NCBI GenBank assembly: GCA_028140145.1
Contig: JAOIOC010000003.1
Location: 1 to 64,000 of the forward strand
Direction of reading: 5' to 3'
DNA from: SAR86 cluster bacterium
GTDB taxonomy: Bacteria > Pseudomonadota > Gammaproteobacteria > Magnimaribacterales > AG-339-G14
Length of the DNA stretch: 64,000 nt
Both the position numbers and the translations under genes were made by a program. Below are positions 193 to 46,681 of this stretch, one piece after another (the first letter of the stretch is position 1; every line of letters begins with the position of its first letter). The notes beneath the pieces were generated by a model. It was not told the DNA's origin and ran no database searches. It was given only the letters and a program-made list of their open reading frames with translations.

Positions 193-933
193 ATGAAAAA
201 AATAATACTATTTGTGACATTAATTGGATTACCAATTAGTCTTTTTGCACAGGAAGTGCCAGATCCGCTAACGGCAGGATATAGCCAATGTAAATTCTTA
301 CCTGGAAAAGGTATGGAATCTCTTGAAGAATATGTAGAGCTTTTTAATGAGGAGTTAGATAAAGCAGGGATTGAAATGGGTTCAGCAATGTTGATGCCGT
401 TTTTTAAAACTAATATTTCTGAATACGATGTTTTGTGGGTAAACACTTGGCAAGATAATGCACAAGCAGGTAAAGCAATGGATTGGTGGCTTTCAGATGC
501 CGGCGAAAAATCCAGAGACGCTTGGCCAATGTTTTGCGATACTCAGATTTTGACTTATCAATGGTGGATGGAAGCGGTTACCGATCGTGATGATTTCGAA
601 GGTCAAAATTTCAGTGCTTCTTATTACACTTGTAATTTAAGAGATGGAAAAAATCTTAGTGACGCCTACCTAGCATCTAATGCAGAACTTAAATTAGCTC
701 ATTCAAAAGGTTCTAAATCTAGCTCTGTTCTTATCAGGCCAGCTTCAGGGACAAATGCAGCTGAATTTCCATTTGATTTTGTAAGACTGTTCACAAATCC
801 TTCATTTACAAATTGGGGTGAAGCTGTAGACGGTTGGTACGATAATGTTAGAGGCTCAGCAGAAAGTAACAAAGTAAGAGATACCTACGATTGCAATGGG
901 TCGACTTTATTTACTGGAAGGATAGTTCGTTAG
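193..933 (+). CDS. secreted protein of unknown function, two-repeat type
   Basis: A 246-residue protein with a classical signal peptide (MKKIILFVTLIGLPISLFAQ) and a good ribosome site (AGGAG, 7 nt before the ATG). The mature part appears to be two similar halves, about residues 27-130 and 143-246. Each half begins with a short strand containing Cys (GYSQCK; YYTCNL) and ends with a second Cys (MFCDTQ; YDCNGS), so one disulfide per half is plausible for an exported protein. The closest relative in the window is the lipoprotein at 3178-3993, which has cysteines at matching places. I know no function. The size and half pattern suggest paired ferredoxin-like (dimeric alpha-beta barrel type) domains, which is inference. 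Confidence 0.8.
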   Translation: MKKIILFVTLIGLPISLFAQEVPDPLTAGYSQCKFLPGKGMESLEEYVELFNEELDKAGIEMGSAMLMPFFKTNISEYDVLWVNTWQDNAQAGKAMDWWLSDAGEKSRDAWPMFCDTQILTYQWWMEAVTDRDDFEGQNFSASYYTCNLRDGKNLSDAYLASNAELKLAHSKGSKSSSVLIRPASGTNAAEFPFDFVRLFTNPSFTNWGEAVDGWYDNVRGSAESNKVRDTYDCNGSTLFTGRIVR

Positions 934-945
934 CTGTTTGAGGAT

Positions 946-975
946 AAAAAAGGAAGGCTAATGCCTTCCTTTTTT
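946..975. terminator. bidirectional rho-independent terminator
   Basis: A 13-bp perfect inverted repeat, AAAAAAGGAAGGC-TAAT-GCCTTCCTTTTTT, lies between two convergent genes. It has a GC core and T-runs on both strands, so it can end transcripts from both sides. Confidence 0.9.
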
Positions 976-983
976 TTCCAACT

Positions 984-1685
984 TTAATATTGAATTAAAG
1001 TGTATCCAGCATCGACTGTGATAATTTCTCTAATTGATTCTACTTCTCTAGCAAATCTCTTAAAGTTATCACTTGCTTGACTTACGCTCAAAGCTTCAGT
1101 CATTTCAGCCATTGACGATCCAAAAATATAAGCAAAGTGAGTCATTCCATCGACTCCTCCTGCCATAATTCTATTCACGCCGTAGCTTCCAGAAGCTAAG
1201 CCGTCTTCTGTTTGTGCTTCCATCATCTTCTTGTAGGCTGCAGCATACTTAGCTTCATCGGTCACCTTCATTTGCCAAAGCATGTAAACATTTGCTTCAG
1301 GTGCAGTTCCTCCGGCATAGATTGGAGTGGACAAAGCCTGATATTCTTGACTAATAACTCCAACTCCATCGGCAAGAAATTTTTGAGCTGCTGCACAAGT
1401 TTGAAATGTTTGGCGCACATTATCCATGCCTTTTCCATTTTGATAATTAAAAGTGAGAATGTGCGAGGCTCCGTTATCACCATTAAAATGAGGCTCGAAC
1501 AAAGTAACTCGAGCTGGCATTTCTTTGGCGCAGTCGGAGGCCATGAATGTTTGTAAAGATTCCACCACGGCAGCAGGATTAGAAGTTGAAAATCCATAAT
1601 GCGCTGTCATCGGTGGAGAATCATGACCATCCGCAAAAAGATTGACTGCAGTGATACTCATCATAAGTAGTAAAAAATTTTTCAT
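984..1685 (-). CDS. secreted protein of unknown function, two-repeat type
   Basis: A 233-residue protein with a signal peptide (MKNFLLLMMSITAVNLFA). Two similar halves are visible, about residues 26-110 and 130-225. Each has a beta-alpha-beta pattern starting from a hydrophobic strand (TAHYGFSTS; VYMLWQMKV) and a strand near the middle (HILTFNY; THFAYIF). It lies 3 nt downstream of the gene at 1689-2387 and is probably co-transcribed with it, ending at the terminator at 946-975. The family is unrecognised. Its layout matches its neighbours although residue identity is low, so common ancestry is inferred from architecture and position. Confidence 0.75.
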   Translation of the reverse strand: MKNFLLLMMSITAVNLFADGHDSPPMTAHYGFSTSNPAAVVESLQTFMASDCAKEMPARVTLFEPHFNGDNGASHILTFNYQNGKGMDNVRQTFQTCAAAQKFLADGVGVISQEYQALSTPIYAGGTAPEANVYMLWQMKVTDEAKYAAAYKKMMEAQTEDGLASGSYGVNRIMAGGVDGMTHFAYIFGSSMAEMTEALSVSQASDNFKRFAREVESIREIITVDAGYTLIQY

Positions 1686-1688
1686 ATT

Positions 1689-2387
1689 TTACTCAGCCGT
1701 GTAAAGAATTTCGCATTCTTCAATAGAGTCTCTTTCAAAAGAATCAACCAAAGATTGCATAGCCACAAAAGCTTGACTCCAAGATGCCCCGGCATAACCT
1801 TTATCAAACATAGCTCCCATTGATTTACCATCTTTTGCAAATCCTCTGACCATTAAGGTGTTACCTTCAGGACCACCGCCAATAGGCGCAAAAACAGCTA
1901 ATTGGAAATCTTCACCTGCAGCCTTCATAGCAGCCTCAAGAACTTCTGTAGACTGTAAAAAAGCCACAACGTTTTCAGGTTTAATAGACACCCTGGTAAC
2001 TCTTTCAAATCCTGGCGTTAACTCGAAAGGAGTTAAGGTTTTCCAGAAAGATGTATACTTTATTTTTCTCATGTTTTTTAGAGCTGTTGGAGCAGCATAA
2101 GGATTATAAGTAGTGGCATTGGCCATCATATCTTCTAGCGAAGCAAATCCATTCCAAATAAACATTTCACCAGGATAATCATGACCGGAAACAGTCATGC
2201 AATATCCACTTACATCTCCACCACCTGCTGCTAAGAACTGAGGATTTTCCTTCAAATAATCGATATATTCGTAAGGATCTTCAGCTTTTACATGAAAAGT
2301 AGTAAACCCACCTTCTGGAGGTCCTTCCTGAGACCATAAGGTACTAGTAGCAAATATAGCTACTAAAATATTCAATAAAATTTTCAT
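1689..2387 (-). CDS. secreted protein of unknown function, tandem duplicate A
   Basis: The track start at 2429 is too early. The ATG at 2387 is preceded by AGGAG and opens directly into a signal peptide (MKILLNILVAIFATSTLWSQ), giving 232 residues. It is clearly paralogous to the next upstream gene (2402-3097): EDPYEYIDYLKENP matches DDPQEYIDYLKENT, GEMFIWNGF matches GEMFVWNGF, and FAPIGGG matches FQPFGGG. Two halves are visible, the second from about residue 123 (FERVTRVSIKPENVVAF). Function unknown. It is second in a three-gene minus-strand unit of secreted proteins. Confidence 0.8.
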   Translation of the reverse strand: MKILLNILVAIFATSTLWSQEGPPEGGFTTFHVKAEDPYEYIDYLKENPQFLAAGGGDVSGYCMTVSGHDYPGEMFIWNGFASLEDMMANATTYNPYAAPTALKNMRKIKYTSFWKTLTPFELTPGFERVTRVSIKPENVVAFLQSTEVLEAAMKAAGEDFQLAVFAPIGGGPEGNTLMVRGFAKDGKSMGAMFDKGYAGASWSQAFVAMQSLVDSFERDSIEECEILYTAE

Positions 2388-2401
2388 AATTTCTCCTAAA
2401 A

Positions 2402-3097
2402 TTATTCGGCAGTATAAATAACCTGACACGACTCATACGTATCAGTAACTACTTCATCTGCCAGTGAAAGTAGTTTTAAATAAATCGGCATCCAGCTAGT
2501 TCCTTCGTAAGCTTTATCAATAATTGCACCAGCTTCTTCAGAATTAGGATGTGAACCTCTAATATGGAATTCTTGTTCGGAATAACCACCACCAAAAGGT
2601 TGAAAAATTCCAAGATTAAAATCAATCCCATCAGCTTTAATTGCCTTTTCAAAAGCAATTGAAGTAGCTAGGTATTCTGGTAAATTTTCTCTTGCTATCT
2701 TAATTCTATTTAACCTTTCAAAAGAAGAGGGACGAATTGGAAAGTCCTTTAGCGGTTTCCAGAAAGTTGAATACTTAACTTCCCTCAGTTTTTGTAAGGC
2801 TCTAGGCGCAGAAGCAGGATCATAAGAATCTCCTCCTTTCATAGCCTCAGCCATTGAACTAAAACCATTCCAAACAAACATTTCTCCAGTATAACTGTTA
2901 CCTGTTCTTGTGACGCAGACTCCAGCCATATCAGAACCAATTGCTTCAAAGGCTTCAGTATTTTCCTTTAAATAATCTATGTATTCTTGAGGATCGTCAG
3001 CTTGAACATGAAGCGAGGAAAAAGCACCTTCGGGTGCATTCTGGGCAAATGTAAAACTGGATAAGACCAGAATTGCCGTAAGTTGTAAAAATTTCAT
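2402..3097 (-). CDS. secreted protein of unknown function, tandem duplicate B
   Basis: A 231-residue protein with a signal peptide (MKFLQLTAILVLSSFTFA) and a strong ribosome site (TTTAGGAGAGATTT). It is the paralogue of 1689-2387 with the same two-half layout and the shared motifs EYIDYLKEN, GEMFxWNGF and FxxPGFER or FERLNR. It is the first gene of the minus-strand unit 3097-984. The duplicates are separated by only 14 nt, typical of a local tandem duplication that has since diverged. No function is known to me. Confidence 0.8.
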   Translation of the reverse strand: MKFLQLTAILVLSSFTFAQNAPEGAFSSLHVQADDPQEYIDYLKENTEAFEAIGSDMAGVCVTRTGNSYTGEMFVWNGFSSMAEAMKGGDSYDPASAPRALQKLREVKYSTFWKPLKDFPIRPSSFERLNRIKIARENLPEYLATSIAFEKAIKADGIDFNLGIFQPFGGGYSEQEFHIRGSHPNSEEAGAIIDKAYEGTSWMPIYLKLLSLADEVVTDTYESCQVIYTAE

Positions 3098-3177
3098 AAA
3101 TCTCTCCTAAAAAATTTTTTACGGCCCTTAACTATAGTAAAAAATCTATTGTTATGGAATGCTAAAATGAAACTAAT

Positions 3178-3993
3178 ATGAAAACTAACAAATCGTTAAT
3201 TTTTTCAGCAATTTTGATAATTCTTTTTTTACTTAGCTGTCAGAATGAACTTACTGAAAATGAGGATAGAGTAGTTATAGATATCGATACGATGGAAGAC
3301 GTATTTCTTCAAAAAAGCGGGATAAATGTCTATAAAACCTGCACTAAAGGAGAAGATTTTTCTAAAAAAAATCTTGAAGTATTGTTGAGAGGATGGAATG
3401 AGGTGATGGAAGAGTTAAAAAATCCATCGGTTAGGTCATCTTTGTTTCAGAAGAATAGAACGGAAACTCTTATTTGGAGCGAGACATGGAGTGACTCTGA
3501 AACAAGAGATGAATTTAAGTTGATCTGGCAAGAGCTTTATGAGGAGAGGTGGAACTACAGATTTAATAAAGTTTTAGCTTGTGATGAGGAAATTGAAGAA
3601 GTAACTGAAATAGTTTCATCGAAAGAGCCAGATGTAGAGTGGCTAGGTCTTCCGCCTCATTATTCAATGTTCGTGTCTTGCAATTTCAAAGACGATAACG
3701 ATCTTGATTTAGCTTTAGCGATTCTCTCAACTGTAGATAATGCAAATCCTGCAATTTTTTCGAATTCACATCGCTATAACGTAGAAATTACTGATGGCAA
3801 TAGATTAATATTTTTAGGAAATGAAAGATTTGATTTCATTTGGAGTAACTTTTGGTTGAATAAAAAGGAACGGGATGATACTAAAAAAAGGTTGAACGAA
3901 AGTTTTATTTTTGAGAATTTATCACTCTATTTCAATTGTAATGTTGATGAATTTTCATACGAACCCATTAAATCAATAATTCAAGATATTTAA
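3178..3993 (+). CDS. lipoprotein of unknown function, two-repeat type
   Basis: A 271-residue protein. The N-terminus has a hydrophobic stretch ending in LLSC, a lipobox that would lipidate Cys21. It resembles the secreted protein at 193-933: four cysteines fall at equivalent places (KTCTKG, LACDEE, VSCNFK, FNCNVD), one at the start and one at the end of each half, with a Trp-rich WSETW/WVNTW strand in the first half. The ATG lacks a clear Shine-Dalgarno sequence. The stop lies one base before the start of the phosphotransferase gene, so the two may be co-transcribed. Function unknown. Confidence 0.75.
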   Translation: MKTNKSLIFSAILIILFLLSCQNELTENEDRVVIDIDTMEDVFLQKSGINVYKTCTKGEDFSKKNLEVLLRGWNEVMEELKNPSVRSSLFQKNRTETLIWSETWSDSETRDEFKLIWQELYEERWNYRFNKVLACDEEIEEVTEIVSSKEPDVEWLGLPPHYSMFVSCNFKDDNDLDLALAILSTVDNANPAIFSNSHRYNVEITDGNRLIFLGNERFDFIWSNFWLNKKERDDTKKRLNESFIFENLSLYFNCNVDEFSYEPIKSIIQDI

Positions 3994-30470: not shown

Positions 30471-30559
30471 GTCTTATAATTATTGAGAATAATTCTTATT
30501 TGATGATTAAATTTGCTCCATAAAGTGTCATAATGTCCAACCGAACTTTGAAGAACTAA

Positions 30560-34675: not shown

Positions 34676-34709
34676 AAAAAAAAAGAGGAGCTATAGCTCC
34701 TCTTTTTTC
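34676..34709. terminator. bidirectional rho-independent terminator
   Basis: The perfect 18-bp palindrome GAGGAGCTATAGCTCCTC is flanked by nine A before it and six T after it. It lies between the convergent quinone oxidoreductase gene and the first of the three small membrane protein genes and can serve both. Confidence 0.92.
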
Positions 34710-34719
34710 TAGATAAAGT

Positions 34720-35124
34720 TTAGCTTCTTTTAATCCAAATCCCACCAAGAATAATTGCAAGAATAACAAGATACCAAACCATGAATACCGGATCTGCAGG
34801 TATCAAACTAAATGAAGAATCCCCCACACCAATCGAGTCAACAAATTGCTGGCCACTAGCTGTGAGATTATCAAGCTCTGCTAGTGCATTGACAGTGCCT
34901 TGCCAGTTTGCATATAAGAAACCTACTGTTTGAAGATTGTAATAAACAACACCCAAACCAAATAAGGTTGCTAAAACTTTGTTTAACATTGGCGTGCCAG
35001 GATCACTTTGAACATTTACCACCATTCTGAAGGCGACCCATATAAGAAAAGCACCTGCTGCAAGATATACAGAGTTACTTATTAAAAAAACATTAAATTG
35101 ATTAATTATTTCCATTTCAGTCAT
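34720..35124 (-). CDS. small membrane protein, tandem family member 1
   Basis: The ATG at 35124 has AAGGAGAG upstream; the track start at 35166 is too early. The product has 134 residues and about three hydrophobic segments. It is homologous to the next two genes: FLIWVAFR in the first segment, LNKVLATLFGLG and YYNLQTVGF in the second, a soluble loop with GQQFVDSIGVGD, then DPVFMVWYLVILAIILGGIW near the end. The family is unknown to me. Each of the three genes has its own ribosome site and terminator. Confidence 0.85.
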   Translation of the reverse strand: MTEMEIINQFNVFLISNSVYLAAGAFLIWVAFRMVVNVQSDPGTPMLNKVLATLFGLGVVYYNLQTVGFLYANWQGTVNALAELDNLTASGQQFVDSIGVGDSSFSLIPADPVFMVWYLVILAIILGGIWIKRS

Positions 35125-35174
35125 ATTTCTCTCCTTAATAATTAAACTGAGCTGACATAGTATCACCTACTATT

Positions 35175-35207
35175 AAAAAAGGGAGTAAGAAATTACCCCC
35201 TTTTTTT
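35175..35207 (-). terminator. rho-independent terminator
   Basis: On the minus strand GGGGGTAA-TTTC-TTACTCCC (one G-T wobble) is followed by TTTTTT and preceded by an A-run. It lies 17 nt after the stop of the membrane protein gene 35224-35628. Confidence 0.88.
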
Positions 35208-35223
35208 ATTTTTATCTAGAGAC

Positions 35224-35628
35224 TTAATCGCTAGGTTTAAGCCAAGTACTTCCAAGAAGAATTACAAGAACTGCAATCCACCAAACGAATAGTATTGGAT
35301 TGTTTGGAATTAAACTAAAAGTCACTTCTTCAGCACCGACAAATTCAACAAATCTCTGCGCACGGTCAGATAGCTCTGGTAACTGACTGAGATCGAAAGC
35401 GGTACTCTCAAAGTTCACTCTTACAAATGCCAAAGTTTGCAAGTTCAAAAAAACTATTCCCAATGAAAAAATAGTTGATAAGACCTTTTGGAAAACAGTT
35501 GCTCCTTGATCTTGAATTCTTAGCACTCCTCTAAATGCAACCCATAGTAAAAATATATTTGCTGCGCCAAATATTGCCGTGCTTGTCATAGCCCCATTAA
35601 AAAGGGCATAAATTTCATATTCAGTCAT
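35224..35628 (-). CDS. small membrane protein, tandem family member 2
   Basis: A 134-residue paralogue of the genes on either side. Shared blocks are FLLWVAFRGVLRI, QKVLSTIFSLGIVFLNLQT, AQRFVEFVGAEE and NPILFVWWIAVLVILLGSTW. Three hydrophobic segments are predicted, with a loop of about 35 residues between the second and third. The leader TAGGAGAGAAAATATGACTGA is almost identical to that of member 1, so the upstream regions were duplicated too. Its own terminator follows. Function unknown. Confidence 0.85.
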   Translation of the reverse strand: MTEYEIYALFNGAMTSTAIFGAANIFLLWVAFRGVLRIQDQGATVFQKVLSTIFSLGIVFLNLQTLAFVRVNFESTAFDLSQLPELSDRAQRFVEFVGAEEVTFSLIPNNPILFVWWIAVLVILLGSTWLKPSD

Positions 35629-35690
35629 ATTTTCTCTCCTATAAAAATTTAACTGTGATCATGATAAATAAATAAAAAATTTATTGCTAT

Positions 35691-35719
35691 AAAAAGAGAG
35701 ACTTAATATCTCTCTTTTT
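35691..35719 (-). terminator. rho-independent terminator
   Basis: A perfect 11-bp inverted repeat, AAAAAGAGAGA / TCTCTCTTTTT, with a 7-nt loop, ending in a T-run on the minus strand. It lies 15 nt after the stop of membrane protein 35734-36129. Confidence 0.88.
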
Positions 35720-35733
35720 ATAAAAAAATTAAA

Positions 35734-36129
35734 CTATTGTTTAGTCCAAATTCTTCCCATCAACATAACAGTCACAACTGCCCACCAACCTGTATTGATT
35801 GGATTATTGAATAACCCGCCTTGAGCAACTTCTCCTGTACCCCAAGTGTCAACAAAAGCTTGTGCTGTTGGCGATATAGCCTCGAGTTGACTCATAGAAT
35901 AAGCTGAATTTTCAAGGGTTGCGAATAGAATCGCGCCGGTATTAAGACCATTGAAGATTATGCCTAAACTAAAAAGAGTCACTAAAACTTTGTTAAGAGC
36001 ATTAGCATCTTCAGCTCTCACTTGATTTGCAGCCCTAAATGCTACCCAAAGCAAAAAGAATACACCAGCTTGATAAATTGCATTAGATGTTAAAAAACCA
36101 GTTAAGGTATCGTAAATTTGATATTCCAT
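35734..36129 (-). CDS. small membrane protein, tandem family member 3
   Basis: A 131-residue paralogue of members 1 and 2. FLLWVAFRAANQV, LNKVLVTLFSLGIIFNGLNT, AQAFVDTWGTGEV and NPINTGWWAVVTVMLMGRIW align with the same blocks. The ribosome site is TAGGAGG. The three genes stand head to tail on the minus strand, each closed by a strong terminator, so each transcript is probably separate and abundant. I recognise no known family; a structural or energy-membrane role is a guess. Confidence 0.85.
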   Translation of the reverse strand: MEYQIYDTLTGFLTSNAIYQAGVFFLLWVAFRAANQVRAEDANALNKVLVTLFSLGIIFNGLNTGAILFATLENSAYSMSQLEAISPTAQAFVDTWGTGEVAQGGLFNNPINTGWWAVVTVMLMGRIWTKQ

Positions 36130-36250
36130 AATTTCCTCCTATTAGAAAATCTAATAGTTAATTTTAACAAATCTAATGTATTTATTTAGGAGTTTATTAA
36201 AAATATCAAATAAATATAAACTTTCTCTTACAAATGAGTATAGTGAATAT

Positions 36251-36565
36251 ATGTTTGAAATTTATTTAGATAAAGCAAAAAAATACCGTTTCCGCCTGAG
36301 GGCAAAGAATGGAGAGAATATCTGTGCAAGTCAGGCCTACACATCAAGGTCTTCCTGTATGAAAGGGATAAAATCCGTTGCAAAGAACTCAAAATCTAAA
36401 GATAACTTTATTACTCAGGAGTCTAAATCTGGAAAATGGACTTTCAGGTTAAAGTCTGGAAACAATAAAGTTGTCGCAACCAGTCAGTCCTATAAAGATA
36501 AATCATCCATGAATAAAGGGATTAGAAGTGTGATGACTAATGCTCCAAAGCTTGTAATAAAGTAG
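36251..36565 (+). CDS. YegP family protein (DUF1508, two repeats)
   Basis: The start at 36251 (MFEIYLDKAKKYRFRLRAKNG) fits the family; the track adds 25 residues of upstream sequence. The product has 104 residues with two DUF1508 units, each with a beta hairpin and a Ser/Gly helix start: FRLRAKNGENICASQAYTS then MKGIKSV, and FRLKSGNNKVVATSQSY then NKGIRSV. The family is widespread and its function is unknown. It reads divergently from the membrane protein tandem. Confidence 0.85.
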   Translation: MFEIYLDKAKKYRFRLRAKNGENICASQAYTSRSSCMKGIKSVAKNSKSKDNFITQESKSGKWTFRLKSGNNKVVATSQSYKDKSSMNKGIRSVMTNAPKLVIK

Positions 36566-36730
36566 TTTTTTTCCTTTTTAGCTCTGTCAGTGTTCTAGAT
36601 GAATCTATTAAAATGATTCTGGTTTGCTATGAAGTTGGCAATTCTATAGTCTCAAGCCATGTAAAAGGCTTAAATATAATCACATTATCTGTTCTCAATA
36701 AATAATTTCTTTTTCTGATAACATTTAAGG

Positions 36731-37105
36731 ATGAAATTAAATAACTATCTAATCTTCTTAGTAACGGTTTTTTTTCTTTCTGCCTGCGGCGTAAAAAGCG
36801 TTACCTCTGCTTCTGTTCAAGCTGATATTGTGTCTGTTGCTGAATACAAGGATTATTCATGTAAAGAGCTGGCTATAGATGCGCTTAATATTCAAAACAG
36901 AATTCCTGAAATTTCTTCTGTTATCGATAAAAAGAAAAAAGATAACGATGCATACATAGCTACAGCAGTTGTGTTTATGCCAATATTGGCTGCAGGGATT
37001 AAAGGCAATCAAGAAGAAGCGGCTCAGTTAGCTCTCTATAAGGGGCAACTAAACGCAATTAGACAGGCAGCAATAATGAAGGATTGCGAAATAATTGTTC
37101 AATAA
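36731..37105 (+). CDS. small lipoprotein
   Basis: A 124-residue protein with a lipobox (VFFLSAC, lipidated Cys19). The mature part has YSCKELAIDALNIQ and QNRIPEIS heptad-like helices, a short hydrophobic stretch with Gly (FMPILAAGIKG), LALYKGQLNAIRQAA and a final Cys (KDCEIIV). This pattern is common in small bacterial lipoproteins of unknown function. It is separate from its neighbours by 165 nt upstream and is convergent with the propeller gene. Confidence 0.75.
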   Translation: MKLNNYLIFLVTVFFLSACGVKSVTSASVQADIVSVAEYKDYSCKELAIDALNIQNRIPEISSVIDKKKKDNDAYIATAVVFMPILAAGIKGNQEEAAQLALYKGQLNAIRQAAIMKDCEIIVQ

Positions 37106-37140
37106 TTTAGATCATATACCCTAAAGGGGGCTACCTAATT

Positions 37141-38522: not shown

Positions 38523-39173
38523 TTAACGATTGTAAGTTAAAACGCTTTCCAAAACAGTGACCATGTTATTTGGATCAACAGGAGATTTAAAGAAGCCGTA
38601 ATATCTTCCAGATGGGCTTAATAGTGCAAGATTCATGCTGTGATCCATATCATAATCTGTTCTTTTGGAATCCACTACTGGCACAAATGGAAGTGTTAGC
38701 TGAGTTGCTAAAGTATAAATAGTTCCAATGTCCCCGCTTACACCTATAAAAGAAGAATCAAAAGATTTAGCGTATCTATCGATCAGTTCAGGAGTATCTC
38801 TGTCTGGATCAACAGAAACAATCATAAAATTGATCTTATCTCTTAATTGAATGTTTCTATCAGCAAGAAGATTTGAAGTCTTTTTCATTTTTGCCATAGT
38901 CATTGGACACATATCAGGACATGAAGCAAAACCCATGAAAACCAGGTGCCATTTCTCAAGCAAGTTTGTTTGCTTAAAAACTTCTGTCCCGGATTGAAGC
39001 CTGAATTCTGTTAGCTGCCTTGGCGCTGAGAGTTCATAAAATTTGAGTTCTTTGTATTCATCTTTGGTCAGCTCTTTGGGTGACACAATGCTGTAAACAA
39101 AAACACCGATCACCAACGAGACCAATACAAGACAAGATAGAACTGTTAAGCGAATATTTGATGTTCTAGACAT
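38523..39173 (-). CDS. SCO1/SenC family copper chaperone
   Basis: A 216-residue membrane-anchored thioredoxin-like protein. The single N-terminal helix (LSCLVLVSLVIGVFVYSIV) is followed by CPDMCPMTMAKM with the copper-binding CxxxC and by DMDHSMNLALL with the third ligand His. It delivers copper to the CuA site of cytochrome oxidase subunit II. It overlaps the ctaB gene by 8 nt and is the last gene of the oxidase assembly run. Confidence 0.93.
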   Translation of the reverse strand: MSRTSNIRLTVLSCLVLVSLVIGVFVYSIVSPKELTKDEYKELKFYELSAPRQLTEFRLQSGTEVFKQTNLLEKWHLVFMGFASCPDMCPMTMAKMKKTSNLLADRNIQLRDKINFMIVSVDPDRDTPELIDRYAKSFDSSFIGVSGDIGTIYTLATQLTLPFVPVVDSKRTDYDMDHSMNLALLSPSGRYYGFFKSPVDPNNMVTVLESVLTYNR

Positions 39174-40038
39174 AAGTTATCACCGCCCTGTCAACGATCA
39201 TCAATAAAAATATTAATGTTAAATAAATTATGGAATATAAAAATAAACTCATGGCATTATCTGCACCTATACTTTTCTTTAATTTCCAGGATTTTTGTAT
39301 AAATATTCCGCCAAGAATTACAGCTCCTATCAGATAAACATAACCAAAGTGCCCAGTAGCAAATAAAAGAAGTGATACAAGCAATAATAAAATTGAATAT
39401 AAAACTATTTGAATCTTTGTGTACTCAACACCTTTCACTACTGGCATCATCGGTATACCAGCTTTGGCGTACTCATCTTTTTTATTGATAGCCAAAGCCC
39501 AAAAATGAGGCGGCGTCCAGATAAAAATTAAGAGCACTAGTAATAAAGGTAGAGGATCTATTGTTCCTACAACGGCTGTCCAACCAAGCAATGGTGGCAT
39601 GGAACCTGCAAGTCCACCGATTACTATATTAAGAACACCGGAAAATTTTAGAATCTTGGTATAAATAAATGCATAAAAAACCCATGTTGCAAAAGTAAGA
39701 GCCCAAGTAAGGAAATTATTGAAGTAGAGTATCAAAGCTGATCCAATGAAAAGAAGAAAAATAGCAAAAAGAGTCGCTGAAAAAATGCTAATTTTTCCTG
39801 TAACAATTGGCCTTTTCCCTGTTCTTTCCATAACGGAGTCATACTTGAAATCAAGGATCTGATTTATTGCAGCTGATGAACCAGCTATGAAAGCTATTCC
39901 AATAAAACCTGTAAGTGCTTTAACAAGATTTAAGTTGAAATTGGTTGCAAGAACCATAGATGCTCCAGCAGTAATCATAAGAAGGTACAAAACACCTGGC
40001 TTCGTTAATTTAAAATATTCTGTAATAGTAAGGCTCAT
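39166..40038 (-). CDS. ctaB: protoheme IX farnesyltransferase (heme O synthase)
   Basis: A 290-residue polytopic UbiA-type prenyltransferase. NQILDFKYDSVMERTGKRP near residue 60 is the prenyl-diphosphate binding region, and INKKDEYAKAGIPMMPV near 180 is the second. It converts heme B to heme O, the substrate of CtaA. It overlaps ctaA by 4 nt and SCO by 8 nt. In other organisms the gene is also named cyoE or cox10. Confidence 0.95.
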   Translation of the reverse strand: MSLTITEYFKLTKPGVLYLLMITAGASMVLATNFNLNLVKALTGFIGIAFIAGSSAAINQILDFKYDSVMERTGKRPIVTGKISIFSATLFAIFLLFIGSALILYFNNFLTWALTFATWVFYAFIYTKILKFSGVLNIVIGGLAGSMPPLLGWTAVVGTIDPLPLLLVLLIFIWTPPHFWALAINKKDEYAKAGIPMMPVVKGVEYTKIQIVLYSILLLLVSLLLFATGHFGYVYLIGAVILGGIFIQKSWKLKKSIGADNAMSLFLYSIIYLTLIFLLMIVDRAVITYV

Positions 40039-41039
40039 GCGGTGCTTATTGTAGAGGATTTTAGCCTAACAAAGGATAAATACATCAATAAGAACAAAGC
40101 ACCTAGGTTATGTGCTATGGCTACATAAAGAGGAACCTGAAAGTATATATTTGATACTCCCAAAGCTAATTGAAGGCTGATCAACGAAGCAAATCCTAAT
40201 GATGTCATTCGATAATTCTCTTTATAAAAACGCCAGGATAATAAAAGGAATACTATAGAAACTGCGACAGCTCCAAGCCGATGAATAAAGTGAATTGCGA
40301 CTCTGGATTCAACATCTAATTGCCCGCCTAAATAGTCTGGGCCTATTTGTTGAAAAAAATTAAATCCTTTTGAGTAATCAGCTGGTGGCAACCATTGACC
40401 GTGACACGTTGGAAAATCTGGACAGGCCAAAGCTGCGTAGTTTGAGCTTAACCAAACGCCTAAAATTATTTGTCCAATTAAAAATGGAAAGGCCCAGTTT
40501 AGTAATGTTTTTGTTTGAGTAACTACTGAAAAGCTGACATTGAAAGTAGACCTGAGTTGAGATGATCTTAAGAAAATTAAAAAGACTAATGTGGTTGTGA
40601 AAAAACCTCCCAATAAATGAAGAGTTACAACCTGAGGCCATAATTGCAAGCTAACCGTTAAGTAACCGAACAAAGATTGTATACAGACCAATACAGTGGC
40701 AGCATAAATTAAATTATTTAGTCTTCTATCTCTAATTTTTGAAAAGATAGCCAAAAAGAAAAGACCAAATATCAATAATCCTAGTGAGCCAGCAAAATAT
40801 CTATGCACTACTTCTGGAACAGCTTTTGCCAATTCAAATTGTCTCTCTGGGAAAGTAATGTTTGCTTGTTCAATTTCTGCTTCGGTAGTTGGCATCCAAA
40901 CGTATCCATAGCAACCTGGCCAATCAGGACATCCTAATCCAGCATCAACAAGCCTTGTCCAGGCTCCTAGACCAACAACAACGAATGCTAAAAATATTCC
41001 TATCAGACTGATAATCTGAATTTTTTTAAAATTATCCAA
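40035..41039 (-). CDS. ctaA: heme A synthase (COX15/CtaA)
   Basis: A 334-residue eight-helix membrane protein. Four conserved histidines are visible: VVHRYFAG near residue 77, HLLGGFF near 138, IHRLGAV near 250 and AHNLGAL near 310; GLGCPDWPGCYG and ALACPDFPTCHGQW are the paired Cys loops. It oxidises heme O to heme A, used by the aa3 oxidase encoded upstream. It overlaps the CxxxC protein gene by 8 nt and ctaB by 4 nt. Confidence 0.95.
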   Translation of the reverse strand: MDNFKKIQIISLIGIFLAFVVVGLGAWTRLVDAGLGCPDWPGCYGYVWMPTTEAEIEQANITFPERQFELAKAVPEVVHRYFAGSLGLLIFGLFFLAIFSKIRDRRLNNLIYAATVLVCIQSLFGYLTVSLQLWPQVVTLHLLGGFFTTTLVFLIFLRSSQLRSTFNVSFSVVTQTKTLLNWAFPFLIGQIILGVWLSSNYAALACPDFPTCHGQWLPPADYSKGFNFFQQIGPDYLGGQLDVESRVAIHFIHRLGAVAVSIVFLLLSWRFYKENYRMTSLGFASLISLQLALGVSNIYFQVPLYVAIAHNLGALFLLMYLSFVRLKSSTISTA

Positions 41040-41619
41040 TTTTTGAAACCCTCAATAGTTTTTTTAAGTCTTCAAGAATTTGCTTAAAGTTTTCATTTTT
41101 ATCTTCTTTAGGACCATAAAACATGATGATATTTCCTAAAGGATCTACTATAAACAAAGATCCTTCCTCAAAAGGATTAATATTCTGGCTTTCAAATTCT
41201 TTAGCTATCAATGAGCCCTCGACATATGTAGCATGTTTAAGAGGCTTATATTTTTCCAAGATATCGTAGTCTTTATCTGACTCGCTGAGGAGAAATCTTG
41301 ATACTCGGATGCTTTCTCGATTCAAGGCTATGTTTGCTTGTCTTGCGACATAAGCTGCATCATCGCAAGTTGATGAGCAATCGCCTTTAATAAACTGGAA
41401 GATCATCCAATCTCTTTCGATGGTTTCAATGTTAAAAGGTTGATACTCATAAGTGACCCCCAGCTCACCAACATCAATCGGCGGAGACAGAAGTTGACCA
41501 TTGTTCACTCTTCCCTCTGGAAGGGATGCACCTGAGTAGTACCACACAGTGCTTGATAGAATCACCAAGATAGGGGTCAAGAAAATTAACATCGCTATAA
41601 CAAAGTTCTTCTTAATCAT
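41032..41619 (-). CDS. thioredoxin-like protein of the oxidase cluster (CxxxC)
   Basis: A 195-residue protein with one N-terminal membrane helix and a periplasmic part. GDCSSTCDDAAYVARQ near residue 75 carries a CxxxC like the copper motif of SCO proteins, followed by a thioredoxin-like LFIVDPLGNIIMFYG. A gene of this kind lies at the same place, between SURF1 and ctaA, in gammaproteobacterial oxidase clusters. It may help in copper or heme insertion, which is inference. Confidence 0.75.
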   Translation of the reverse strand: MIKKNFVIAMLIFLTPILVILSSTVWYYSGASLPEGRVNNGQLLSPPIDVGELGVTYEYQPFNIETIERDWMIFQFIKGDCSSTCDDAAYVARQANIALNRESIRVSRFLLSESDKDYDILEKYKPLKHATYVEGSLIAKEFESQNINPFEEGSLFIVDPLGNIIMFYGPKEDKNENFKQILEDLKKLLRVSKIG

Positions 41620-42316
41620 TTTTTCTAAACCCTACAAAAATAAAACCTGCCAAAGCAACCAAACTCAAGCCTAACCATTGAATTGCGTAGCCAAAATGTC
41701 TATTGGCAGATAAATAAACAGGTTGCCAAATCCTAGTGAATCCATCTAATAAAAATTCATCAAGTTCAAAGACTACAGCCGGATAGCTTGTATTCCACTT
41801 CAAGTTAATGCTATCGATATCAAAGGACTGCATTTCTAGACCACTTTCTTCCCTTTCATAAATTGAATTATCTAACGTGAAAGCTTTTTCGATTGGTCTG
41901 AAAACTCCCTGCAATAAATAATTCTGGTCTAAGGTCTTTTTTGATTCATCAAATGACTTTGACCATCCTTTAGATACTAAAAGTGACAATCCTTTATTAG
42001 ATAAAAACTCTTGATAAACAGAAAAACCACGAACTCCTTCATGGATTGCATTGTCTACTAAAACTGTCCTTTGACTGAACTTGCCTTGCATAAAAAAGGG
42101 TATGTACCATTGGCTGGGAGTAGCATATTCTAATGAAATAAATTCGGTTGGGGGCTTTGATTGCTGATTATTAATAAAACTTTCAAGCTTAGATTTTTCT
42201 AATCCCCTTTGATATTGCCAAAAACTTAAACTTAATAAAATTGGTAATATAATTGCCGTAAAAATTGTAAACTTCCAACCAGGATTAAATTTTCCAATGT
42301 TAGTAAAAATACTCAT
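41612..42316 (-). CDS. SURF1 family oxidase assembly protein
   Basis: I place the start at 42316 (MSIFTNIGKFNPGWKFTIFT, 234 residues), since the preceding 20 residues of the track ORF lie on the antisense of DUF2909 and do not look like SURF1. There are two membrane helices: LPILLSLSFWQYQRGLEK at the N-terminus and YAIQWLGLSLVALAGFIF at the C-terminus, with a periplasmic domain between (VLVDNAIHEG, WSKSF). SURF1 assists heme A insertion into subunit I. It overlaps the CxxxC gene by 8 nt and DUF2909 by about 20 nt in antisense. Confidence 0.88.
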   Translation of the reverse strand: MSIFTNIGKFNPGWKFTIFTAIILPILLSLSFWQYQRGLEKSKLESFINNQQSKPPTEFISLEYATPSQWYIPFFMQGKFSQRTVLVDNAIHEGVRGFSVYQEFLSNKGLSLLVSKGWSKSFDESKKTLDQNYLLQGVFRPIEKAFTLDNSIYEREESGLEMQSFDIDSINLKWNTSYPAVVFELDEFLLDGFTRIWQPVYLSANRHFGYAIQWLGLSLVALAGFIFVGFRKND

Positions 42317-42509
42317 CGTCGTTTTAATGATTGCTATGCTGATCAGCCTCTTTTCTAGCGCAGCTTTTATGATCAAAGATAAAAAAGGAGCAATGACCAG
42401 AAGTTTTATGGCTCTCAGGGTAAGGGTAGTAATTGCGGGTCTTCTTTTGTTGACCCTCGCATACGGTCTTTATAGTGGTCAAATAGTTGTTAATAGCCCT
42501 TGGGGTTAG
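42297..42509 (+). CDS. DUF2909 twin-helix membrane protein
   Basis: A 70-residue protein: helix 1 (KILIVVLMIAMLISLFSSAAFMI), a basic loop KDKKGAMTRSFMALRVRV, helix 2 (VIAGLLLLTLAYGLYSG). This matches DUF2909, a family usually found antiparallel inside cox clusters between coxC and SURF1. Here it overlaps coxC by 4 nt and the SURF1 5' end by about 20 nt. The opposite strand of the 3' part is not coding, so this frame is the real one. Confidence 0.85.
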   Translation: MLVKILIVVLMIAMLISLFSSAAFMIKDKKGAMTRSFMALRVRVVIAGLLLLTLAYGLYSGQIVVNSPWG

Positions 42510-43408
42510 AATACGTAAACTACCAACACCAATAATATCCATACTACATCTACGAAGTGCCAGTACCAGGATCCTGCTGCAAGACCAAAGTGATCTTCCT
42601 TAGTAAAGGCTCCTCGAAATCCTCTTATGGTCATAATTGTCAAAATGATTGCTCCTAAACAAACATGAAAGCCGTGGAAACCTGTAAGAAGAAAGAAAGT
42701 AGTTCCATAAATCCCAGCACCTAGAGTCAGACCCATGTGATCATAGGCTTCGTAATACTCAAGGCCTTGTAAATAAACAAAAGTAAATCCAAGAATAAGA
42801 GTCATAACCATCCAAAACTTAAATGAAGTTCTATTGCCTTTTTTCAAAGCATGCTCAGCAATCGTTATGGTTCCGCTTGAAGTTACCAAGCAAAGAGTGT
42901 TCCAAAACGGTAACCAATGCCCTACGTTTGCAAATCCAGGAAAATTCATATTCTCTTTTGGGCCTTGAAATAAAGACTGATCCGGGGTCTGCATTACTGG
43001 CCAAGTCGCTTCGAATCCAGGCCACAACATATTCGAGATAGCCTTTTCACCTTCACCTCCAAGCCACGGCACTGCAAAAATTCTTACGTATCCTAGCGCT
43101 AAAAAGAAAGCGAAGAAAAACATGACTTCACTGAATATGAACCACTGCATGCCCATGACAAATGATCTATTCAATTGATCGCTGTACATTCCTTTGTCGT
43201 TTTCTTTTATAACTTCGCCAAACCAAAAGAAGAACACTGAAAAAATAACGGCAAAAGCAGCGATTAGGATCCAATATGAATTTGAATCAGGTTTGTCTAA
43301 ATCGTTAATAGTGTAACCAGCGCCTAATACAAAAAGCATCAAACCAAAAGCCATCCAAATTGGCAGTCTGCTGCTTGCTGGAACAAAATATGAAGATTGA
43401 TCAGACAT
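42506..43408 (-). CDS. coxC: cytochrome c oxidase subunit III
   Basis: A 300-residue seven-helix protein. WFIFSEVMFFFAFFLALGY near residue 88 has the conserved Glu, FHGFHVCLGAIILTI near 238 the His pair, and WYWHFVDVVWILLV closes the chain. It stabilises subunit I. It follows ctaG by 2 nt and ends overlapping the antiparallel DUF2909 gene. Confidence 0.97.
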   Translation of the reverse strand: MSDQSSYFVPASSRLPIWMAFGLMLFVLGAGYTINDLDKPDSNSYWILIAAFAVIFSVFFFWFGEVIKENDKGMYSDQLNRSFVMGMQWFIFSEVMFFFAFFLALGYVRIFAVPWLGGEGEKAISNMLWPGFEATWPVMQTPDQSLFQGPKENMNFPGFANVGHWLPFWNTLCLVTSSGTITIAEHALKKGNRTSFKFWMVMTLILGFTFVYLQGLEYYEAYDHMGLTLGAGIYGTTFFLLTGFHGFHVCLGAIILTIMTIRGFRGAFTKEDHFGLAAGSWYWHFVDVVWILLVLVVYVF

Positions 43409-43410
43409 AA

Positions 43411-43950
43411 TTAATTACTCGCTTGTAATTTTATATGAGATTCAGTGATATCAAAAAGAGTATAACCAAGGGTTAACACAGGAACATCATCGGGGAGATC
43501 AGGATCAATAATAAATCTAACCGGCATGGTTAACTTTTCTCCAGGTTGTAGAAGTTGTTCCTCAAAACAGAAGCATTCAGTTTTATGAAAATATTGTGCA
43601 CCTTTTCCCGGAGATACACTCGGTATTGCCTGAGCTACCATAGGATAATCTGTAGGATTTTCAAAAGTATAATCAACTGTATAAGCTGTTCCCGTTTCTG
43701 CATCTATTGTTCTTTTCTCGGAAGTAAAATTCCAAGCCATATTTTCATTATTCTTGGTAACAAAGAGAATTTTGATTTCCCTGGAATCAAAATTTTCATC
43801 ATATTGGGTAATGGTAGGTCCAGATACTTTTCCATTTAACCCAGTGATTTCACAAAAAACATCGTAAATAGGAACCAAAGCAAAACCAAAGCAAAACATA
43901 CCTAAAACAAGACTTACTAATTTTAAGTTTGTTTTAGTAGCTGCTTTCAC
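43411..43950 (-). CDS. ctaG: cytochrome c oxidase assembly protein CtaG/Cox11
   Basis: A 179-residue copper chaperone with one N-terminal membrane helix (LVSLVLGMFCFGFALVPIYDVFC). The periplasmic domain has FHKTECFCFEEQLLQPGE with the CxC copper ligands near residue 122, and the C-terminal FIIDPDLPDDV. It delivers copper to the CuB site of subunit I. It overlaps the coxA stop by 4 nt. Confidence 0.95.
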   Translation of the reverse strand: MKAATKTNLKLVSLVLGMFCFGFALVPIYDVFCEITGLNGKVSGPTITQYDENFDSREIKILFVTKNNENMAWNFTSEKRTIDAETGTAYTVDYTFENPTDYPMVAQAIPSVSPGKGAQYFHKTECFCFEEQLLQPGEKLTMPVRFIIDPDLPDDVPVLTLGYTLFDITESHIKLQASN

Positions 43951-45530
43951 TTAACTTCTGGTGGAGTTTCAAAAGTGTGATACGGAGCTGGCGATGCAAC
44001 AGTCCACTCCAATCCTTTGGCGCCTTCCCATACTTCAGAAGTAGCCTGTTTTCCAGCAAAAATACTCTTAAGAATAATAAATAAGAAGAGGAGTTGCGTT
44101 AAACCAAAAATGAACGCACCAATAGAAATCACCATATTAAAATCTGCAAATTGAAGAGCGTAATCAGGAATTCTTCTAGGCATACCTGCTAATCCAACAA
44201 AATGCATGGGGAAGAAAGTAATGTTAACCGAAATAAAAGACATCCAAAAATGAGTTTTCCCTAAAACTTCGTCGTACATGTTACCCGTCCATTTTGGTAG
44301 CCAATAATAAACACCAGCGATTATTCCAAAAATAGCTCCGGGAACTAAAACGTAATGAAAATGCGCAACAACGAAGTAAGTATCGTGGTACTGAAAGTCA
44401 GCTGGAGCTATTGCAAGCATCAACCCTGATAATCCACCAATAGTAAACAAAGCTACAAAAGCTATCGAAAAAAGCATCGGAGTTTCAAAAGAGATAGAAC
44501 CTTTGAACATAGTCGATAACCAATTGAATACTTTCACTCCTGTTGGGATTGCAATCAACATGGTTGTGTACATGAAGAAAAGTTCACCTGCGATTGGCAT
44601 TCCAACTGTAAACATGTGATGCGCCCAAACAATGAAAGAAAGGATAGCGATTGATGCTATTGCATAAACCATTGACGTGTATCCAAAAATTGGTTTTCTT
44701 GAGAAGGTTTCAATGATGTGCGATACGATTCCAAAAGCAGGCAAAATCATTATGTAAACCTCAGGGTGACCAAAGAACCAAAAGATATGTTGGAATAACA
44801 CTGGATCTCCACCACCGGCAGCGTTGAAGAAACTGGTTCCAAAATGGATATCCATGAGCATCATAGTTACAGCCCCTGCAAGAACTGGCATTACAGCAAT
44901 TAGAAGATAAGCAGTGATCAGCCAAGTCCAAGTAAACAATGGCATCTTCATGAAAGTCATTCCAGGTGCTCTCATGTTAAGAATTGTGGTTATGATATTT
45001 ATGGATCCCATAATGGAAGATGCTCCCATGATGTGAACTGCGAAAATGAAGAAAGTTACTGTTGGCGGTGCGTAAGTTGTAGATAAAGGTGCATAGAAAG
45101 TCCAACCAAAGTTAGGACCTCCGCCTTCCATGAAAAAGGTGGAGATTAAAATTCCAAAAGCCACTGGGAGAATCCAAAAACTTAAGTTATTCATTCTCGG
45201 TAAAGCCATATCTGGAGCACCGATTTGCATAGGAATAATCCAGTTAGCCAAACCAACGAAAGCTGGCATGACCGCTCCAAAAACCATAATCAGACCATGA
45301 TTAGTCAGCATTTGATTATAAAATTCTGGAGATACTATTTGGCTTCCAGGCTCAAATAGCTCAGCTCTGATAACCATTGCCATGGCACCACCTAAAAATA
45401 ACATCAAAAAGCTAAACCAAAGGTAAAGCGTACCGATGTCTTTATGGTTAGTAGTGTATAACCATCTGGTTATACCTTTTGCTGGGCCGTGATGATGATC
45501 ATCTGAATGCGAATCTATTACTGCGCTCAT
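43947..45530 (-). CDS. coxA: cytochrome c oxidase subunit I
   Basis: A 527-residue twelve-helix heme-copper oxidase subunit of the aa3 type (A family). TNHGLIMVF has the heme a His; WFFGHPEVYIMILPAFG near residue 250 has CuB His and the cross-linked Tyr; AHHMFTVG near 305 has two CuB His; HDTYFVVAHFHYV near 390 has the heme a3 and a His. It is the catalytic core that reduces oxygen and pumps protons. It starts 14 nt after coxB and is coupled to ctaG. Confidence 0.98.
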   Translation of the reverse strand: MSAVIDSHSDDHHHGPAKGITRWLYTTNHKDIGTLYLWFSFLMLFLGGAMAMVIRAELFEPGSQIVSPEFYNQMLTNHGLIMVFGAVMPAFVGLANWIIPMQIGAPDMALPRMNNLSFWILPVAFGILISTFFMEGGGPNFGWTFYAPLSTTYAPPTVTFFIFAVHIMGASSIMGSINIITTILNMRAPGMTFMKMPLFTWTWLITAYLLIAVMPVLAGAVTMMLMDIHFGTSFFNAAGGGDPVLFQHIFWFFGHPEVYIMILPAFGIVSHIIETFSRKPIFGYTSMVYAIASIAILSFIVWAHHMFTVGMPIAGELFFMYTTMLIAIPTGVKVFNWLSTMFKGSISFETPMLFSIAFVALFTIGGLSGLMLAIAPADFQYHDTYFVVAHFHYVLVPGAIFGIIAGVYYWLPKWTGNMYDEVLGKTHFWMSFISVNITFFPMHFVGLAGMPRRIPDYALQFADFNMVISIGAFIFGLTQLLFLFIILKSIFAGKQATSEVWEGAKGLEWTVASPAPYHTFETPPEVK

Positions 45531-45544
45531 AGTCCTTCCGTATA

Positions 45545-46681
45545 TTAAAGTTTGTTATTTTTATAATCCAAAATTTCTTTTGGAATTACGATTTCTCCGT
45601 CACCGCTAGCATCGTTACCCCACGCCTTCCTCGTATAGGTTATAACGGCTGCAATGTCGACTTCAGAAAGCTGTTCGGCGTATGACTGCATAGCAGCACC
45701 TTGAACACCTTCCATTAAAATTTCTATTTGTTTAGCTTTATCATTTAGCACAAGATCGCTTCCTGCTAATGCTGGAAATACAGGAGGTAATCCTTCTCCA
45801 TTGACTTGATGACAAGCTACACAATTGGTTTGGTAAACACCTTCTCCAATTTCATAAAGTTCTTCTGTTGACCAAAGCTTTTCAGTGAGAAGTGCTTGTT
45901 GAATTTTTGCTTCTTTCTTCTCATTTACCCAAAGTTCGTAATCTTCAGGTGATACTGCTTTAACAACAACTGGCATGTAACCGTGATATTGCCCACACAG
46001 CTCAGTGCATTGACCTCTGAAAATTCCTTCTTCATCAACTTGTGTCCAAGCTGTGTTTATAAACCCAGGGATTGCATCTTGCTTTACTGCAAAATCTGGA
46101 ACCCACCATGAGTGGATTACATCGTTAGCTGTGATTAAAAATCTGATTCTTTTATTTGTTGGTATGACTAAAGGCTCGTCAACTTCCAAAAGATAGTTAT
46201 CTGATTTGGGGGCAATGTTGTTTCTTTGATCTAAATCTGTGGATAGGTTACTGAAAAAACTTACTTCGTCTTCTAGGTACTCATACTGCCACTTCCATTG
46301 ATGCCCAGTGATTAAAATATTGATATCTCCTTCTGCATCATCGTATGCACGAATCATTGTAAAGGTTGCTGGAATGGCCATGACCGCCAAAATAACTGCA
46401 AATAATACGGTCCAAGTCATTTCTAGAACTGGATGGTCATCAAACTGAGCTGGTTTATCTCCCTCTTTTTTTCTAAAAGCAACTATGAGATAAACCATAA
46501 AGCCGAGCACTAATGCTCCAATGACCACGCATATCCAGAAAATAGTCATGTGCAGATCAAAAATTTCTCTGCTGAGGGCATTAACACCCGGAGTCATATT
46601 CACGTCTCCCCAGCCAGCAAAAAGCGGAAGAGATACGCAACAGGAAATTAATGCCGCAAAAATTCTTTTAATAAGTACCAT
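45545..46681 (-). CDS. coxB: cytochrome c oxidase subunit II with fused cytochrome c domain
   Basis: A 378-residue protein: signal peptide, two membrane helices, cupredoxin domain and a C-terminal cytochrome c domain. The CuA ligands are in VIHSWWVPDFAV (near residue 168) and CTELCGQYHGYM (near 206); the heme-binding site is CVACHQVNGEG (near 268) with a likely Met ligand in AAMQSYAEQ. It receives electrons from cytochrome c. It is the first gene of the oxidase operon; the fused heme is common in gammaproteobacteria. Confidence 0.96.
   Translation of the reverse strand: MVLIKRIFAALISCCVSLPLFAGWGDVNMTPGVNALSREIFDLHMTIFWICVVIGALVLGFMVYLIVAFRKKEGDKPAQFDDHPVLEMTWTVLFAVILAVMAIPATFTMIRAYDDAEGDINILITGHQWKWQYEYLEDEVSFFSNLSTDLDQRNNIAPKSDNYLLEVDEPLVIPTNKRIRFLITANDVIHSWWVPDFAVKQDAIPGFINTAWTQVDEEGIFRGQCTELCGQYHGYMPVVVKAVSPEDYELWVNEKKEAKIQQALLTEKLWSTEELYEIGEGVYQTNCVACHQVNGEGLPPVFPALAGSDLVLNDKAKQIEILMEGVQGAAMQSYAEQLSEVDIAAVITYTRKAWGNDASGDGEIVIPKEILDYKNNKL

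Follow-up and report, generated by a model that had tools for sequence, protein, structure and literature searches.

SAR86 bacteria are heterotrophs and among the most abundant bacteria of the surface ocean. Oxidases commonly contain small helical subunits, and the intercistronic hairpins of the puf operon set the ratios of the subunits that it encodes. Recombining strings of immunity paralogues have also been described, for example the T7SS immunity arrays (PMC9484751). SAR86 is iron-stressed in the field, where the addition of iron elicits a response of its TonB receptors (PMC11069385), and catecholate receptors, a possible entry route for colicins, are abundant in the group (PMC11582366).

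We analysed a 64-kb window, which is the whole stretch of DNA under study, from a genome of the SAR86 group (1.10 Mb, 71.5% complete). The list of open reading frames places three genes in a tandem array on the minus strand, transcribed in the order A, B, C (Table 1). The initial annotation had described them as three tandem small membrane proteins, which we confirm: the reading frames are present at this place and encode paralogues, with lengths of 131–134 residues, pairwise identities of 34–44% and 30 invariant columns of about 134 in the alignment. Gene C starts with the ATG at position 35124, not with the mechanically called GTG at 35166, and a ribosome-binding site precedes each of the three genes. 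The motifs reported before are present in a slightly looser form, as FLxWVAFR, NK/QKVLxTxFxLG and (A/G)QxFVxxxG, together with a C-terminal helix that contains tryptophan and ends in W-x-K.

Table 1. Features of the array and its surroundings in the 64-kb window.
Feature	Position	Strand	Remarks
Five tandem secreted or lipoprotein-like proteins, predicted two-repeat alpha-beta-barrels	193..3993		231–271 aa; distant members of the secreted family
Perfect hairpin GAGGAGC-TATA-GCTCCTC with A/T arms	34677..34710		terminator common to the array and the convergent alcohol dehydrogenase gene
Gene C (class IVa)	34720..35124	-	134 aa, predicted 3-TM membrane protein; allele probably replaced relative to sister species G007
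Promoter-like element TGATACTATGTCA	35153..35165	-	upstream of gene C; similar in L001, L004, L009, L011, L012, L013
Hairpin and U-run, B–C gap	35175..35206	-	-16.8 kcal/mol, z -2.8; relatives keep the stem with a different sequence
Gene B (class IVb)	35224..35628	-	134 aa, predicted 3-TM membrane protein
Hairpin and U-run, A–B gap	35687..35723	-	-17.8 kcal/mol, z -5.7
Gene A (class III)	35734..36129	-	131 aa, predicted 3-TM membrane protein; first gene of the array
Region upstream of the array	36130..36290	-	without Fur box; g2–g4 relatives have one at this place
Cytochrome c oxidase operon coxB-coxA-ctaG-coxC-surf1-(unknown)-ctaA-cyoE-sco1	38523..46681	-	names by sequence and order

Hydropathy analysis indicated two to three strong membrane segments in each of the A, B and C proteins, and the proteins of the family are predicted to span the inner membrane with three helices. 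The N-termini are acidic (K+R/D+E per sequence 0.21/1.70), as is the long second loop (0.82/4.73), and the first loop (2.55/1.15) and the C-termini (1.15/0.30) are basic. This charge pattern points to an N-out, C-in topology, in which the acidic loop would be exposed to the periplasm and the basic side to the cytoplasm. An AlphaFold model of the gene A protein, calculated from four sequences with a mean pLDDT of 78.6, contains helices formed by residues 2–37, 44–80, 87–96, and 110–128. In an alignment of 33 members, only W29, R33, K48, and W129 (gene B numbering) are invariant in well-filled columns, and there is no conserved histidine or cysteine. The proteins evolve under purifying selection (dN/dS 0.01–0.26). 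Since conserved metal or heme ligands are lacking, the proteins probably do not carry iron themselves. The row L043:10244-10657 was shortened in one of the family alignments, which does not affect the conclusions.

The profile of the family recovers its members with E-values of 1e-52 to 1e-46, so that membership is far beyond chance. Members are present in 108 of the 151 genomes of the SAR86 order, including 35 of the 40 near-complete ones. Outside the order, a sample of 369 genomes from the class yielded three marginal partial matches (E 0.001–0.009), and a sample of 399 genomes from the phylum yielded no member except in the genome of the window itself. Judging from these profile searches, the family is so far restricted to SAR86, with convincing members in none of several hundred other Pseudomonadota. 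The description of the family as unrecognised is borne out, since no member exceeded the thresholds of Pfam, NCBIfam, PHROG or PADLOC, profile searches of the PDB produced nothing convincing, and a Foldseek search with the gene A model, which is based on a shallow alignment (pLDDT 79), returned no PDB match below E = 1. A profile search for distant families gave no clear match to a known family either. The best library match is the LysE translocator (Pfam PF01810), aligned locally over two helices of the gene A protein with 20.6 bits; however, the curated cut-off of 25.6 bits is not reached, only two of 41 members match, and the proteins are half the size of LysE. The weak matches to LysE, Colicin_V and DUF6541 were rejected as below cut-off and inconsistent among members, and a match to a fragment of photosystem I, whose E-value rose from 0.008 to 0.041 with a broader profile, was taken as chance. 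A viral origin was also rejected, because the family has no relative in IMG/VR and the membrane protein has no match among viral models at E ≤ 0.001 in Foldseek. No publication on the family was found in the literature searched, which leaves out most subscription journals.

The evidence that links the family to a physiological process comes from the promoters of its genes. The genome search assigned anonymous family (f1–f4) and genus (g1–g22) labels, and the window belongs to f1 and g1. The region upstream of the first gene of the g2–g4 arrays contains a -10-like TATAGT and, downstream of it, TGAGAATNATTCTCA, from which some copies deviate at one position or more. The 807 kb of SAR86 DNA that were retrieved contain 11 exact copies of TGAGAATNATTCTCA, each of them just upstream of a gene of the family. 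This sample is centred on family genes, and a whole-genome scan is therefore the less biased test. Fifteen genomes were scanned, with the backwards pattern as a control that gave zero to one match. The promoter of the array is the only exact copy genome-wide in five f1 genomes (G010, G013, G014, G016, and G022). The other exact copies in f2 precede TonB receptors and an FbpA-like binding protein. Boxes with one mismatch are located before ferritin, before hemC, which encodes porphobilinogen deaminase, and before TonB receptors that have an FTR1 permease gene in their vicinity; the remaining ones are inside genes and look like chance occurrences. An exact box is located upstream of 14 genes of the family, including divergent pairs with one common box. 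Because the same box is found at iron genes and Fur is encoded in 12 of 12 genomes tested, we regard TGAGAATNATTCTCA as very probably an operator of Fur, which would control the family in f1 genera g2–g4 and in most of f2. In the loci L122 and L123, a TonB receptor gene is paired with an FTR1-type iron permease gene under double Fur boxes.

The array of the window is different. Fur control was tested for it, and no box was found: the best score of the position weight matrix is within the background. Other examined g1 arrays also lack the box, and g1 still has Fur boxes before TonB receptors (L123). The promoter sequences thus indicate that the genus of the window has lost the Fur box of the array. 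Boxes were not found before most f3 and f4 copies either, so iron control is not universal in the family. Elsewhere in the window, a Fur-like box, TGAGAATAATTCTTA, is located at 30484–30498 between an esterase-like gene and the gene for PEP carboxykinase (30560–32083). It is kept in G001, G007, G008, G013, and G016, and this central carbon gene may be under iron control.

A recurrent neighbour of the membrane gene encodes a secreted protein of approximately 230–250 residues, whose family has only two to six members per genome. At eight f2 loci, the secreted gene begins 1–12 nt after the membrane gene, and the two form an operon. A member of the secreted family is adjacent elsewhere, including f3, in divergent or convergent orientation, and there are three distinct neighbourhoods in all. 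The f1 array is not next to secreted genes, which are 16–31 kb away. Four of the five secreted proteins of the window were compared with Pfam and NCBIfam, without a match. A low-confidence model of the secreted protein (pLDDT 57) contains two beta-alpha-beta-beta-alpha-beta repeats. Foldseek aligned it with the dimeric alpha-beta-barrel proteins 5f9p and 2pgc at E-values of about 1e-5 to 1e-6, with chlorite-dismutase/HemQ folds lower in the list. The secreted partner is predicted to be a tandem alpha-beta-barrel protein and would represent a second unrecognised family.

Based on the operators, topology and neighbours of the genes, we tentatively favour the interpretation that this SAR86-specific inner-membrane family serves a response of the cell envelope to iron limitation, acting as an oligomeric adaptor or scaffold together with a partner in the periplasm. 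The link of the family to iron is moderately supported by the promoter sequences, and the mechanism is what we infer from them and from the structure predictions. The extension of the role to the genus of the window, which lacks the box, is conjectural.

The position of the array suggests a different function. In the f1 genomes examined at 20 kb, the array always has sco1, which ends the oxidase operon, on one side and a convergent gene for a zinc-type alcohol dehydrogenase on the other. It directly follows sco1 in the same direction in sister genera, and up to three genes are inserted in g1. The inserted genes of the window (36251–38460) encode a double DUF1508 protein, a small lipoprotein, and a 439-residue beta-propeller-like protein, and their presence varies within the genus. 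The energy-related role suggested in the initial annotation is thus supported by position only, namely by the place of the array behind the cox/cta operon in f1, to which the window belongs. The proteins could accordingly belong to the aa3 cytochrome c oxidase, as small accessory subunits or as assembly chaperones, and be regulated by iron because the oxidase needs heme. We consider this unlikely, because the copies in f2, f3 and f4 are nowhere near cox genes: the f2 gene has a GST-like gene and a gene for a related dehydrogenase in its neighbourhood, and f3 and f4 have single copies or pairs at other, vertically kept places. Furthermore, the array has a promoter and a Fur box of its own, distinct from those of the cox operon, its copy number of one to four contrasts with the single oxidase, and a profile comparison with the proteins of the cox operon gave no match. 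At one locus (L020; G003:C26:7054-7347), the family segment ends an open frame of 470 residues near the end of a contig, which may reflect a fusion with the gene before it or an assembly artefact.

The array also shows signs of recombination. A tree of 70 members contains well-supported classes common to several genera. The order of classes along the array is II, then I or III, then IV, and then V, VI or VIII, with presence or absence varying within a genus and with one exception, G016, in which IVb precedes III. The f1 array is therefore a mosaic of fixed order and variable content. The window and the corresponding locus of the sister species G007 (L145) have flanking genes that are 97–100% identical (dS 0.02–0.10). 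Gene A is identical (dS 0.02), and so is the protein of gene B (dS 0.19), but gene C is only 78% identical, with a dS of 2.3. The gene C of the window is 99% identical to the copy of G005 (L146), although the flanking genes of G005 are more distant. These values are best explained by replacement of the gene C allele through recombination. Such an exchange, and the fixed order and variable content of the array, would be expected of immunity genes against pore-forming bacteriocins or other envelope toxins from competitors, if such genes are diversified by recombination and induced together with the siderophore receptors that admit the toxins. Several observations make this explanation improbable. 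The family has no match to an immunity or defence family in PADLOC, Pfam or NCBIfam, and no toxin gene was recognised beside the examined arrays, where the flanking reading frames are partly annotated and where orphan arrays would need none. The single copies in f3 and f4 are vertically conserved at stable places and the family is present in nearly all near-complete genomes, both of which are unusual for immunity genes. The strong conservation of the invariant residues also speaks against immunity genes.

The spacing of the array genes bears on their expression. U-tailed hairpins separate the three genes of the window (Table 1), and another one, with -19.6 kcal/mol and z = -6.0, follows gene C; the z-scores are relative to dinucleotide shuffles. 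A simple consensus scanner missed the hairpins, because A/U pairs prolong their stems into the U-run. In 19 f1 arrays, a hairpin is present in all 21 gaps of 61–111 nt, with differing stem sequences, and in none of the 14 gaps of 8–24 nt. The f1 arrays are thus chains that mix coupled and hairpin-separated genes, and the claim that each gene has its own terminator holds for the three genes of the window but not in general, since tight coupling of neighbours is frequent in the arrays. The leaders that had been noted as nearly identical are those of genes B and C, and the likeness spans about 20 nt at the ribosome site and start, GGAGAGAAA(A)TATGACTGAA. No known RNA element scored above its gathering threshold in the array leaders. 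The g1 gaps of 91–111 nt leave about 50 nt beside the hairpin, and a TGATANNATGTCA-like element in the B–C gap is common to the six closest relatives of gene C. We regard this element as a candidate promoter of gene C. Separately tunable expression, as proposed initially, is plausible in the window, which has intergenic hairpins and the conserved promoter-like element before gene C. It is less plausible in other genera: the g3 and g4 gaps of 61–69 nt are too short to hold a promoter behind the hairpin, which more likely functions there as an attenuator or 3' stabiliser.

The separate ribosome sites and terminators had been taken as signs of high expression, as for a structural or energy-related membrane protein without a specific relation to iron. 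Codon adaptation was calculated with the ribosomal proteins of G007 as a reference, which discriminates weakly in this AT-rich genome, and is 0.721 for gene A (rank 4 of 65), 0.665 for gene C (rank 33), and 0.640 for gene B (rank 50), with averages of 0.69 for ribosomal genes and 0.66 for the other genes of the window. Codon usage is therefore consistent with high expression of gene A at most, and the values of genes B and C, average to low, speak against abundance of all three proteins. The control by Fur in relatives points to use under particular conditions more than to constitutive use, and we think that a constitutively abundant protein of this kind is quite unlikely.

Kinship with rhodopsins, which would make the family half-rhodopsins or light-related membrane proteins, is highly improbable and essentially refuted: the proteins share the topology of helices E–F of a sodium-pumping rhodopsin, to which there was a weak profile match (E = 0.28), and proteorhodopsin is present in 14 of 14 SAR86 genomes tested, but a broader profile no longer produced the match, a comparison between the profiles of the family and of SAR86 rhodopsins gave probabilities of 0.2–1.1%, at the background level of unrelated controls, and there is no retinal lysine in the last helix, the sole invariant lysine, K48, preceding TM2.

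For an envelope response to iron limitation, the following mechanism can be proposed. In most f1 and f2 lineages, iron-loaded Fur would bind the box just downstream of the -10 element and repress the gene or array, and iron starvation would release the repression. The proteins would then form homo- or hetero-oligomeric, non-catalytic scaffolds or adaptors in the inner membrane. Their periplasmic partner may be the tandem alpha-beta-barrel protein, which is co-transcribed in f2 and which would contact the scaffold. In f1, the gene would have been multiplied into the fixed-order array after the cytochrome oxidase operon, where the hairpins between the genes may set the relative amounts of the proteins. 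In the genus of the window the Fur box appears to be lost, and the array is probably expressed free of Fur control. We speculate, with considerable doubt, that the mosaic, order-preserving scaffold array and the periplasmic alpha-beta-barrel proteins together constitute a new, lineage-defining iron-stress module of the envelope, Fur-controlled in most f1 and f2 relatives and freed in the genus of the window.

The family is near-universal in SAR86, has no relatives outside the group and is probably controlled by Fur across a large part of the lineage, which makes it a candidate marker of iron stress in SAR86. It also offers a direct handle on a function that no library can name, and the array is a clean natural case of the swapping of paralogues in a fixed order within a conserved neighbourhood. 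Since a SAR86 isolate exists (PMC11582366), the predicted iron control may be open to experiment in lineages that carry the box.

The locus resembles several known systems in part. It shares with the small helical subunits and assembly factors of cytochrome c oxidase the location after sco1 in f1; however, it has no sequence match to them and is away from cox genes in f2–f4. Like the T7SS immunity arrays (PMC9484751), the array consists of tandem, non-identical paralogues with variable content and allele replacement, whereas the SAR86 arrays have no toxin seen alongside, conserve their order, are near-universal in the lineage, and match no immunity family. The hairpins at fixed places between genes for small membrane proteins are reminiscent of the puf operon, although the family has no homology to antenna proteins and the hairpins would affect expression here only by analogy. 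The Fur-regulated iron-acquisition genes of Gammaproteobacteria encode TonB receptors, FTR1 and FbpA, whereas the family corresponds to none of the known transporters, receptors or enzymes, lacks metal ligands, and is without the box in the genus of the window and in most f3 and f4 copies. Where the box is present, the family and the iron-acquisition genes have the same operator, TGAGAATNATTCTCA, in the same genomes and overlapping the promoter region.
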